This document shows positions 44,196-62,640 of a DNA stretch of 64,000 nucleotides, piece after piece (position 1 is the first letter of the stretch; every line of letters starts with the position of its first letter). The translations under genes were made by a program, and so were the position numbers. The stretch spans positions 6,205,001 to 6,269,000 of the forward strand of contig NZ_CP117449.1 of NCBI RefSeq assembly GCF_030687835.1, in the 5' to 3' direction. Below the pieces are notes generated by a model. The model was not told the origin of the DNA. It saw nothing but the letters and a program-made list of their open reading frames with translations, and made no database searches. This stretch comes from Pseudomonas hefeiensis. Lineage in GTDB: Bacteria > Pseudomonadota > Gammaproteobacteria > Pseudomonadales > Pseudomonadaceae.

Positions 44196-44224
44196 AAAAA
44201 AACCGACAGCCATGTCGGTTTTTT
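44196..44224 (+). terminator. Rho-independent terminator after crc
   Basis: AAAAAACCGACA and TGTCGGTTTTTT arms with a 4-nt loop, about 20-48 bp after the crc stop. Confidence 0.93.
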
Positions 44225-44352
44225 ACAGGCGCTGAAAAAACCAACTGTGGGAGCAACTGTCTTGGATGGTTTATTTAGCCATCTTTTTCAGAGGCAGCGA
44301 GCCTCCCACAGCTCTGGGCTATGCAATTGTCTGAGGGAACCGGAATCACAAT

Positions 44353-45285
44353 CTACGCGACGTCTCCCTTCCACTCAGAACCATCCCGGATCATTGCGTT
44401 TAGACGTATCAACAAGATCCGCATACATGCGATGAGCGCAACCTTCGCGCATTTGCCTTTCTCGCGCAGCGCCTTGTAGCGTGCATTGAAGTCAGGCTGA
44501 TACCTGATCACTGACCAGCAGGCCATGTACAGAGCGCGCCTGGCGGAGAACCTACCGCCGCTGATATGGCGTTGGCCTTTGTGCGTGCCGCTATCGTCGT
44601 TGTAGGGGGCGATGCCTGCTAATGCGGCTATCTGATGTCGCCCAACCTCGCCGAGCTCTGGAAGATAGGCCATTACGCTGGCTGCCGTGACGAGACCGAT
44701 CCCCTTGACCGAGCACAGGCGAGTGACTTTTTCACTGTCCAGGCTTTCAGCGCTTTGACGGATCATCTTTTCTATCAACTTAATGGCTTCGCACAGGTAG
44801 TCGATATGACTCTGCAACGCGGGTTTAACGGCCTCAGATGAGGCCGTTTTAAATCTGCGTTTGTCGTCATCTCTCTGCTGAGTAAAGTTTTCCCGTTGCT
44901 GGACCAGTGCGCGCAAGTCGTCCTGTTCGGCACTTGTGATCCGGCTGTTAGCCGATTTGATGACCGCTGCAAATTGCGCCAGGAGGCGCGCATCTATCGG
45001 GTCGGTTTTAGCTTGTTGTCCCATTGCTTTGGCAAAGCTCTTGGCTCGGCAGGGGTTGATCCGAATGACCTCAAAACCTGCAGCCTGAAGCGCTTTCATG
45101 ACGTTTCGCTCGTAACCGCCAGTGGCTTCCAACAACACACGGGTGACCTGATGGAGCAGCAGCCAACCAATTAATCCAGGAAAATCATCTTCAGCGTTAG
45201 GGCAACTCACCCCAACATCTAAGAGATCAACCTGAACCTGAAGACTGTCTTTTGAAACATCAATACCTGCTGGATAGGAAAACAT
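44353..45285 (-). CDS. IS110-family transposase (DEDD recombinase)
   Basis: 310 residues from the ATG at 45285 (AGAGGG 7 nt upstream). N-terminal RuvC-like DEDD domain: GIDVSK (Asp 9), LLEATGGYE (Glu 53), TDPIDARLLA (Asp 95, Asp 98). A coiled-coil region (about 115-190) is followed by the C-terminal Tnp domain with SVKGIGLVTAASVMAYLPEL and RHISGGRFSARRALYMA, which holds the candidate catalytic serine (242 or 247). No frameshift or stop is seen, so it looks intact. In this family the enzyme works with a bridge RNA encoded in the element's own non-coding end. Confidence 0.95.
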   Translation of the reverse strand: MFSYPAGIDVSKDSLQVQVDLLDVGVSCPNAEDDFPGLIGWLLLHQVTRVLLEATGGYERNVMKALQAAGFEVIRINPCRAKSFAKAMGQQAKTDPIDARLLAQFAAVIKSANSRITSAEQDDLRALVQQRENFTQQRDDDKRRFKTASSEAVKPALQSHIDYLCEAIKLIEKMIRQSAESLDSEKVTRLCSVKGIGLVTAASVMAYLPELGEVGRHQIAALAGIAPYNDDSGTHKGQRHISGGRFSARRALYMACWSVIRYQPDFNARYKALREKGKCAKVALIACMRILLIRLNAMIRDGSEWKGDVA

Positions 45286-45305
45286 GGCCAAACCCTCTTA
45301 CACTC

Positions 45306-45470
45306 AAGGTGAGAGCGCTCTGGCTTGGCCCACGCTTGTAACTGTTCGAGGTGGGCTCGTTCAACTGTTCGGGCTCAATGACCAGAGTGGAGAGGTGAGT
45401 GGCAGCATGGGCTCCCACACGTGCTTTAAGCACTCCGGGCATTCAGCTTGCCACCCACCGCTCTCACCTT
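45306..45470 (-). ncRNA. Candidate bridge RNA of the IS110 element
   Basis: The segment is bounded by a perfect 12-bp stem (45459-45470 with 45306-45317). Inside are two stem-loops, each with an internal loop around a small apical hairpin. Loop 1 (stem 45446-45459 with 45394-45406) has AUGCCCGG (45435-45442) before and UGUGGGAGC (45411-45419) after a GUGCU/AGCAC hairpin; these correspond to the left and right sides of the REP target. Loop 2 (stem CUCUGG/CCAGAG, 45382-45387 with 45318-45323, plus GCCC/GGGC) has ACAGUUG (45362-45368) and ACAAGC (45334-45339) around CGAG-CCCAC-CUCG; these match the element's own two ends. Structure and pairing are seen in the sequence; the RNA role is inferred from known IS110 biology. 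Confidence 0.8.
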
Positions 45471-45496
45471 CAGTCTAAACGTAGCGCAAGACACAA

Positions 45497-45582
45497 GCGG
45501 GCTTGCTCGCGAAGGCGGAGTGTCAGGCACCTCAACGCGGACTGACCCACCCCATTCGCGAGCAAGCCCGCTCCCACAGGGG
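45497..45582. repeat. Right part of the REPIN split by the IS110 element
   Basis: 'gcgggcttgctcgcgaaggcgg' at 45497 is a REP lacking its first 8-10 bases, which are found left of the element at 44245-44254. The partner REP 'ttcgcgagcaagcccgctcccacag' lies at 45554-45578. Confidence 0.85.
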
Positions 45583-45597
45583 AGTACTCATCGATCG

Positions 45598-45966
45598 TTA
45601 TTTGACCAGCCGCCAGGTAAACGGATACCGATACGGCAGCCCTTCATTGGCCTTCACTCCACCGATGATGGTCAGCACCAGCGCACCGATAGCCACCAGC
45701 CCGAACAGGAAGAAGCCGATCACCACGATCATCAATAGCAGGCTGATAGCCGAGGCAATTGCCACAGTGATCTGGAAGTTCAGCGCTTCCTTGCCTTGTG
45801 CATCGATGAGCGGGTCAGTTTCGCGCTTGAGCTGCCAGAGCACCAGCGGACCGATCAGCGTACCGAACGGAATCCAGATGCCCAACAAGGCGGACAAGTG
45901 ACAGAACATCGCCCATTGGCGCGCCTCCTTGCTGGGCTGGGGCAGTAGGGTTTGCTCATCACTCAT
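45598..45966 (-). CDS. DUF4870 membrane protein
   Basis: 122 residues, three to four membrane segments (about 21-45, 68-90, 92-108). The signature WAMFCHLSALLGIWIPFG and DAQGKEALNFQITV is that of DUF4870/Tic20-like small membrane proteins of unknown role. Lies between the IS110 insertion and rph, on the same strand as rph. Confidence 0.85.
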   Translation of the reverse strand: MSDEQTLLPQPSKEARQWAMFCHLSALLGIWIPFGTLIGPLVLWQLKRETDPLIDAQGKEALNFQITVAIASAISLLLMIVVIGFFLFGLVAIGALVLTIIGGVKANEGLPYRYPFTWRLVK

Positions 45967-61382: not shown

Positions 61383-61494
61383 CGAGCATTTTTCTATGCT
61401 CGCCGATTGTTATGGCGGCTGCGCGTGGGAGACTTTCGAGTCTGCCGGGTTCCTGGACCGGTCTTGCACACCTACGTACAGCTGCCACCTTTTT
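61383..61494 (+). ncRNA. Structured leader before the DUF6124 gene, attenuator-like
   Basis: Hairpin CGAGCAT/ATGCTCG (61383-61402) is followed by an outer stem GGCGGCTG (61414-61421) with CAGCTGCC (61479-61486). That stem encloses AGACT-TTCG-AGTCT (61430-61443, a UUCG tetraloop) and CCGG...CCGG (61445-61461). A run of T (61489-61494) follows the closing arm. This looks like a regulated terminator or structured 5' UTR about 50 bp before the gene. Pairing is seen; the function is inferred. Confidence 0.5.
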
Positions 61495-62385: not shown

Positions 62386-62421
62386 GTGGACGTTGATCTT
62401 GGGGCCCCGTTAACCACGCTG

Positions 62422-62640
62422 GCCGAACGCAGGTATTGCGCAGTGGGCATCCCGGCATGGATGCCGGGATAGCCGCGCTGGGCCATGGATGGCCCTTCGC
62501 GGCGGGCCCACGGAGCAATGCCTGCGTTCGGGCATGCCGAGCCTAGGCGAGGCACCAAGTGGTGGGGCAAGACCTTTTGGTTACTTTTGGGGCGTTTGCC
62601 AAAAGTGACCCGCCGTAAGGGCGGAACCCTAAGCCGCCGT
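62422..62640. repeat. Multi-hairpin structured intergenic block, not REP
   Basis: Outer arms GCCGAACGCAGGTATTGC (62422-62439) and GCAATGCCTGCGTTCGGG (62515-62532) enclose a second helix GTGGGC/GCCCAC (62443-62448 with 62506-62511) and two hairpins: CCCGGCAT-GG-ATGCCGGG (62451-62468) and GGGCCAT-GG-ATGGCCC (62480-62495). Two more hairpins follow: GGTTACTTTTGG/CCAAAAGTGACC (62579-62610) and CCGCC/GGGCGG (about 62610-62624). No protein gene fits. Whether it is an RNA, a protein-binding element or a dispersed repeat cannot be told here. Confidence 0.7.

Follow-up and report, generated by a model that had tools for sequence, protein, structure and literature searches.

REP-targeting IS110 elements and the element in the window

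IS621 is an IS110-group element of E. coli that is described as having a bridge RNA (PMC11208160, PMC11208158). According to these papers, the target loop of this RNA comes first, and in each loop the 5′ guide reads as the top strand and the 3′ guide is complementary; the top strands are reported to be cut directly 3′ of the core, between positions 9 and 10 (PMC11208158). A 2006 report already described ISPpu9, ISPpu10, and ISPa11 as targeting REPs (PMC1525189), and a bridge RNA is predicted for ISPpu10 in an extended-data figure (PMC11208160). ISPa11 and other IS1111 elements are described as choosing their targets with a seekRNA, and the target given for ISPa11 is a REP (PMC11187229). Since both the bridge-RNA principle (2024) and REP targeting by IS110 elements have already been published, the element described here joins a known kind. 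An earlier sequence-only reading of this DNA overlooked the published REP-targeting IS110 elements with bridge RNAs (IS621, ISPpu10), and also that the small RNAs described or modelled over such regions are antisense (Asr9, sX15). What is added here is the tracking of REP dialects by the guides, the record left by the core dinucleotides, and the antisense match, none of which was found among the matches listed from the open-licence literature.

The window, the whole 64,000-nt stretch of Pseudomonas hefeiensis DNA that was analysed, contains a 1242-bp element at 44255-45496 on the minus strand. From its sequence, this is very probably an IS110-group element whose 5′ end encodes an IS621-type bridge RNA on the sense strand that directs insertion into REPs. 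The sequence-only reading had already proposed a REP-directed RNA-guided recombinase, and that proposal is supported by the ends of the element, the guide matches, the fold, the positions of the contact motifs, the tracking of targets, and the cores.

A search of the host genome (6.45 Mb, a single contig) showed four identical copies, all in REPs, in which the identity extends over exactly 1242 bp and is bounded by ...CCCGC|TTGTGTCT and ACAGTT|GCTCCCACA. These shared ends confirm independently the boundaries given earlier, with the left end (LE) beginning TTGTGTCT and the right end (RE) finishing ACAGTT on the minus strand. The interval 45306..45498, previously assigned to the bridge RNA, runs past the element, which itself stops at 45496, and takes in the core copy at 45497-45498. 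The duplicated core in the window copy is the dinucleotide GC. The left core copy (45498-45497) stands with the left half of the split REP, CAAGCCC, at 45497-45505, and the right core copy (44254-44253) with the right half, TCCCACA, at 44246-44254, both on the minus strand. A fifth genome copy, with a protein 95% identical, has the same ends and target. A second, inverted REP at 45555-45580 adjoins the split REP, so the insertion struck one member of a REP pair. There is also a REP-like CTGTGGGAGGCTCGCTG at 44311-44295, just inside the right terminus, with a similar word in L029, and a decayed copy of the element at L006-L008 and L018 (G000:C1:2196652-2197580), in which the transposase matches in pieces.

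Right-end scars, ...AGACAGTT-GCTCCCACA, were seen beside REPs with the left end not found, at L146 (G000:C1:4274700-4276400) and L147-L149; L148 has two such scars 133 bp apart. Among 20 stretches with extra right junctions that were read, three hold intact elements (L150, L153, L154), two hold a partial transposase match (L161, L163), and four likely hold short RE scars (L146-L149); the remainder were cut by contig ends or taken no further. Non-autonomous mini-elements may lie behind some of the extra right junctions.

The recombinase (310 aa from ATG; 44353-45285, minus strand) is preceded by an SD-like AAGAGGG. It matches PF01548 (DEDD_Tnp_IS110, 4.1e-23) and PF02371 (Transposase_20, 2.6e-16), and scores 215.8 bits against NF033542, 'IS110 family RNA-guided transposase'. 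Among recombinases in the PDB, its sequence matches IS621 (8wt6, E 1.8e-30) and ISCro4 (9t56, E 9e-31). As judged by eye, the D, E, D..D, and serine stretches align with those of IS621 (FSARRAL vs VSLRRAL). An in-frame TGA in relatives of about 57-60% identity is probably an ordinary stop, since database relatives of that identity are mostly 305 aa long. Residues 114-278 have a weak, sub-cut-off similarity (24.9 bits) to the TIGR-Tas endonuclease model NF052498.

How does this element compare with the described ones? It shares with IS621 a DEDD/serine recombinase of the IS110 group, though the protein similarity is distant (about 110 bits), a bridge RNA (here a predicted one) in the LE with the target loop before the donor loop, the layout of left and right target guides (LTG, RTG) and left and right donor guides (LDG, RDG), A-N4-G motifs, insertion into REPs, and, as predicted here, strand exchange 3′ of the core. 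The core of IS621, however, is CT and not GC, its RTG has 4 nt where the present one has 8-9, and its REP family is different. Furthermore, IS621 has a separate 5′ stem-loop, which need not be a defining trait of the group, whereas here the outer stem encloses both loops, and a separate 5′ stem-loop of that kind was not seen in the consensus fold of 19 leaders. ISPpu10 and ISPpu9 of P. putida are likewise Pseudomonas IS110 elements described in REPs with a 2-bp direct repeat (PMC1525189, PMC8450116), and ISPpu9 is reported to have a long structured leader (PMC8450116). The repeat of ISPpu9, however, is given as AG, which is CT in the window orientation, with ISPpu10 said to occupy that same REP point, so the window element would lie one base off. 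With ISPa11 and the IS1111 elements it has in common an RNA-guided choice of target, here by the predicted bridge RNA, and with ISPa11 also a location in a REP. IS1111 elements differ in that their guide RNA is placed downstream of the transposase gene and they have subterminal inverted repeats of 11-13 bp (PMC11187229); in the window element the long non-coding end is upstream of the transposase gene, and the RE is only 98 bp.

Predicted leader fold and guide segments

The leader upstream of the transposase gene is 205 nt long and contains the predicted bridge RNA at 45470-45306 on the minus strand. Its sense strand has a folding energy of −78.6 kcal/mol (z −5.9), and none of 200 shuffles was equally stable; the antisense strand has z −3.9, likewise with 0/200 shuffles. 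The predicted fold consists of an outer closing stem (5′ arm 45461-45470, 3′ arm 45306-45315), a target-binding loop at 45394-45459 with its stem (45459-45446 / 45406-45394) and an apical hairpin at 45433-45421, and a donor-binding loop with its stem at 45318-45387 and an apical hairpin at 45359-45347, all on the minus strand. In this fold, the target guides are partly base-paired to each other. The 12-bp outer stem described earlier is indeed perfect in the window (AAGGTGAGAGCG at 45470-45459 with CGCTCTCACCTT at 45317-45306), but only about 7-9 of its pairs are kept in relatives. A simple consensus scan of 44200-45600, in the integrated copy, showed no sigma-70 promoter on either strand.

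Covariation was assessed in 19 leaders, from elements with proteins 52.7-100% identical to that of the window; L040 was excluded from the alignment since its leader is identical to that of L039. In the curated fold of 38 pairs, 99.6% of the cells are paired, compared with 27-47% after sliding the partners. Six curated pairs change on both sides, a number reached by none of 500 shuffles; the target-loop stem contributes five of them (5/13 of its pairs). In the other helices, most pairs are invariant and thus uninformative on covariation. The count of further pair types in the 19 leaders was not above that in shuffles (11 vs a mean of 12.3). The stem covariation across the relatives supports the predicted fold.

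The RTG, UGUGGGAGC (45419-45411, minus strand), is the exact complement of GCTCCCACA at 9/9, core GC included, just as had been claimed, and is kept in relatives. The LTG, AAUGCCCGG, at 45435-45443 on the minus strand, reads CAAGCCCGC, with GCCCG as the reliably paired part. The earlier count of 6 of 8 matches for this guide stands in its own framing (6/9 over CAAGCCCGC), and the first core base is matched, but the second is not. The LDG, AACAGUUG (45362-45369, minus strand), matches RE ACAGTT plus core G. For this guide too the earlier claim holds in part: ACAGUUG (45368-45362) equals the 3′ end of the element and the first core base, with the second core base unmatched. The RDG, ACAAGC (45334-45339, minus strand), exactly complements core GC plus LE TTGT, as proposed. 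With the four guides placed in order as well as possible, the score is 28/33, which was reached by 1/3000 dinucleotide shuffles (maximum 29) and by 0/3000 random decoy target/donor pairs. The 9-nt RTG on its own turns up in 8/3000 shuffles.

In the IS621 complex, a flipped-out A and a syn G, contacted by the protein and five bases apart, are found at A43/G48, A67/G72, A116/G121, and A150/G155. A corresponding A-N4-G motif stands before all four guides of the window element, and before the four guides in 19, 19, 19, and 12 of the 19 leaders; this count is partly post hoc, since motif words served to anchor where the guides of the relatives begin. The seven leaders that lack A-N4-G at the fourth site are all of one subfamily and have A-N3-G instead. 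Counted from the motif G, the RDG ends after 10-11 nt in the A-N3-G and P. putida-like subfamilies, after 12-13 nt in the subfamily of the window, and after 10 nt in IS621 (G155 to G165). On the antisense strand, A-N4-G stands directly before 0/4 guides, and before 1/4 with a 1-nt linker.

We propose a mechanism in which transcription from the excised circle, RNP formation, cleavage, and strand exchange would all proceed as in IS621. The target loop would pair with both strands of the REP half-site, the LTG with the bottom strand around GCCCG and the RTG with the top strand at GCTCCCACA, while the donor loop would pair with the RE-core-LE junction of the circle. Cleavage of the top strands by the recombinase, immediately 3′ of the GC core, would then be followed by their exchange, and the element would enter the REP.

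Junction cores and REP dialects

In four hosts, REPs with a CC core are far commoner than those with GC: 301 vs 18 in G165, 1020 vs 6 in G309, 1073 vs 10 in G188, and 481 vs 53 in G158. The right junction in these mostly-CC hosts reads ACAGTT-GC-TCCCACA in 14/14 matches, at least one of them a degenerate copy (L163). By contrast, the left junction is CC in all seven copies traced at both ends (three in G165, one each in G309 and G188, two in G158); for one G158 copy only the two junctions were seen, 1242 bp apart, and several other G158 copies have left ends that were cut or untraced. So the left junction keeps the core of the target and the right junction that of the donor. With an IS621-type top-strand cut 3′ of the core, the top strand should have CC at the left and GC at the right, and the bottom strand the opposite arrangement; repair or replication would then have settled on the top-strand version in these copies. 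Position 8 of the LTG is C in G158, G309, and G188, matching the host core, and G in G165; since the elements of G158, G309, and G188 are closely related, the shift at this position may be a single event.

Guide bases in use were tabulated for 62 copies, 57 of them with a full left target; the table omits fragments, extra copies of one draft genome, unreadable left ends, and L150, L153, and L154. LTG positions 6 and 7 match in 57/57 copies, and at positions 4 and 5 there is a match or a wobble pair in 57 and 55 of the 57. Position 8 matches in 54/57, and the copies that miss are the three of G165. At position 9 only 24/57 match, and positions 1-3 are loose. About five bases of the LTG are thus read reliably. 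For the RTG, each of positions 9-15 matches in 61 or all 62 copies and position 16 in 54/62; position 8 on the right side was not counted, since it is donor-derived in some hosts. These elements form a compact natural data set for the rules of bridge RNAs: which guide bases matter, what core mismatch is tolerated, and which core survives at each junction.

The REPs of the host genome itself occur in two dialects, with 587 exact sites of AAGCCCGCTCCCACA (the first) and 412 of AGGCTCGCTCCCACA (the second), and such dialects are ready-made reprogramming experiments. Every tabulated guide of the window family has C for target position 6 and so reads the first dialect. Eight hosts have both dialects (G000, G298, G363, G262, G156, G046, G316, G010), and in them the guides track the insertion sites, which answers a concern raised with the sequence-only reading, that loops might fail to do so: 27/27 retrieved window-family copies lie in the guide-matching dialect, where 12.1 would be expected (P 2.6e-11 on the assumption of independent copies; P 0.0019 with one draw per host). 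At most five candidates were scored per genome, here and for the sister lineages below, so the dialect sample is not every copy of each host. Excluded were G219, G121, G175, G179, G308, and G310, which have none or one exact second-dialect site, as well as the four CC-core hosts and G289. G010 has about six times as many second-dialect sites as first-dialect ones (970 vs 164), yet the window-family copies use the first (3/3), while the sister element there, with the other guide, uses the second (2/2). A guide for the other dialect was found in no retrieved window-family lineage, and the causal role of the guide therefore rests partly on sister families.

The other IS110 lineages of the host genome (L009-L013; L014, L016, and L017; L015) have proteins 25-29% identical to that of the window. 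They sit in REPs, with a CT core and one base off, and have different LTGs. Two close relatives within this one genome differ together in guide and target: L014 has LTG AAGTCCGCT with target AAGCCCGCT, and L015 has AGGTTCGCT with AGGCTCGCT. Over 66 sister copies from 22 lineages, treated as independent and with the contig-end copy L117 dropped, the mean LTG match is 6.40/7 compared with 5.59 when permuted, and 0/20000 permutations were as high. A sister in G070 has an AAGCCGG guide with an AAGCCGG target, and one in G094 has TAGTTCGCT with AAGTTCGCT together with an RTG GTAGGAG with CTCCTAC (5/5 copies), so that LTG and RTG co-vary with the target. Where host counts could be used, 44/45 sister copies are in the dialect of their guide (34.1 expected, P 1.2e-5), with near variants (e.g., AAGCTCG, AGGCTTG, GAGCCCG, GAACCCG) pooled with their dialect; the hosts of the other 21 copies had no census or did not have both dialects counted. 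There are exceptions to the tracking. Guides in G205, G290 (3/4 copies), and G267 read AGGCTCG yet sit in AAGCTCG, and L013 is in the other dialect. L098 (G186) has an unrelated left flank that is not a REP half, although its right flank is one, possibly because of a rearrangement.

Antisense strand and alternative readings

Rfam searches at gathering thresholds found nothing in the element, and RF02234 (sX15) surfaced only in permissive searches of the region, as a full-length match on the plus strand at 45308-45473 (43.1 bits, E 2.8e-6; gathering score 55). A second permissive match, mir-1253, was set aside as chance (18.8 bits against a gathering score of 103, E 0.43). The sX15 family is a Xanthomonadaceae sRNA that originated from Xanthomonas RNA sequencing. 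The antisense match was seen in all six window-family loci tested (the window, L005, L035, L039, L043, L050), in 0/5 sister loci, and in none of four plasmid-borne IS110 loci that are more distant, including one from Xanthomonas; at L043, the score of 61.7 exceeds the gathering score. The sX15 consensus keeps, nearly identical, the segment opposite the LDG (CAaCuGUUCggGC) and differs opposite the target guides, as would be expected for a relative aimed elsewhere. No title linking sX15 with IS110 was found among the matches listed from the open-licence literature.

For ISPpu9, the RNA reported over the transposase leader is Asr9, which is stable, antisense, and about 180 nt long; a further RNA, Ssr9, is in the sense direction and lies downstream of the transposase gene (PMC8450116). 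Since Asr9 and the sX15 match are both on the opposite strand, there may be a conserved antisense RNA across the bridge RNA. Could this antisense transcript (plus strand, 45308-45473), of the sX15/Asr9 type, be the working guide, with the sense fold as its mirror image? Complementarity by itself cannot distinguish the strands, the abundant stable RNA of ISPpu9 is reported to be the antisense one (PMC8450116), and the antisense match is present in every window-family locus tested, once above the gathering score. The lengths that the target guides would have in the antisense (9 and about 5) also seem to resemble those of the IS621 LTG and RTG. The A-N4-G contact motifs, however, are placed on the sense strand and not on the antisense, and the order of target loop and then donor loop fits IS621 in the sense direction only. 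The curated stems, minus two marginal outer pairs, contain 9 G-U and 2 A-C cells, which favours the sense strand, albeit from few events, and the absence of sX15 from the five sister loci also argues against an antisense guide. We consider that alternative unlikely, and we take the sense RNA as the probable bridge RNA and the antisense RNA as its putative regulator.

It might also be supposed that the protein alone recognises REPs and that the similarity between RNA and REP is incidental, in a leader derived from a REP; every retrieved copy targets the same REP side, and the genome offers 587 exact sites. Sister IS110 elements with close proteins nevertheless change guide along with target, even in one genome (L014 vs L015), the donor guides match the ends of the element itself and not REPs, and the fold has compensatory change, so protein-only recognition is highly improbable. 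The 5′-UTR of ISPpu9 reportedly hides the ribosome site and holds down translation of the transposase (PMC8450116), and the leader could, as proposed there, be merely a structured regulator of translation. Such a role predicts neither the guide-target matches, nor the guide-donor matches, nor the dialect tracking, and as the sole explanation it is scarcely credible; translation control may hold alongside the guide role of the predicted bridge RNA.

We suggest, as a tentative picture that may well prove wrong, that Pseudomonas IS110 elements form a guild of RNA-guided REP parasites, in which guides evolve with host dialects, lineages share genomes by using different dialects, and a conserved antisense RNA of the sX15/Asr9 type restrains or licenses the bridge RNA, making sX15 an anti-bridge RNA. 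If true, the antisense match would link an Rfam sRNA family to the control of RNA-guided transposition. Elsewhere in the window, Rfam matches were obtained for C4 antisense RNA (61408-61492) and TwoAYGGAY RNA (62411-62544).
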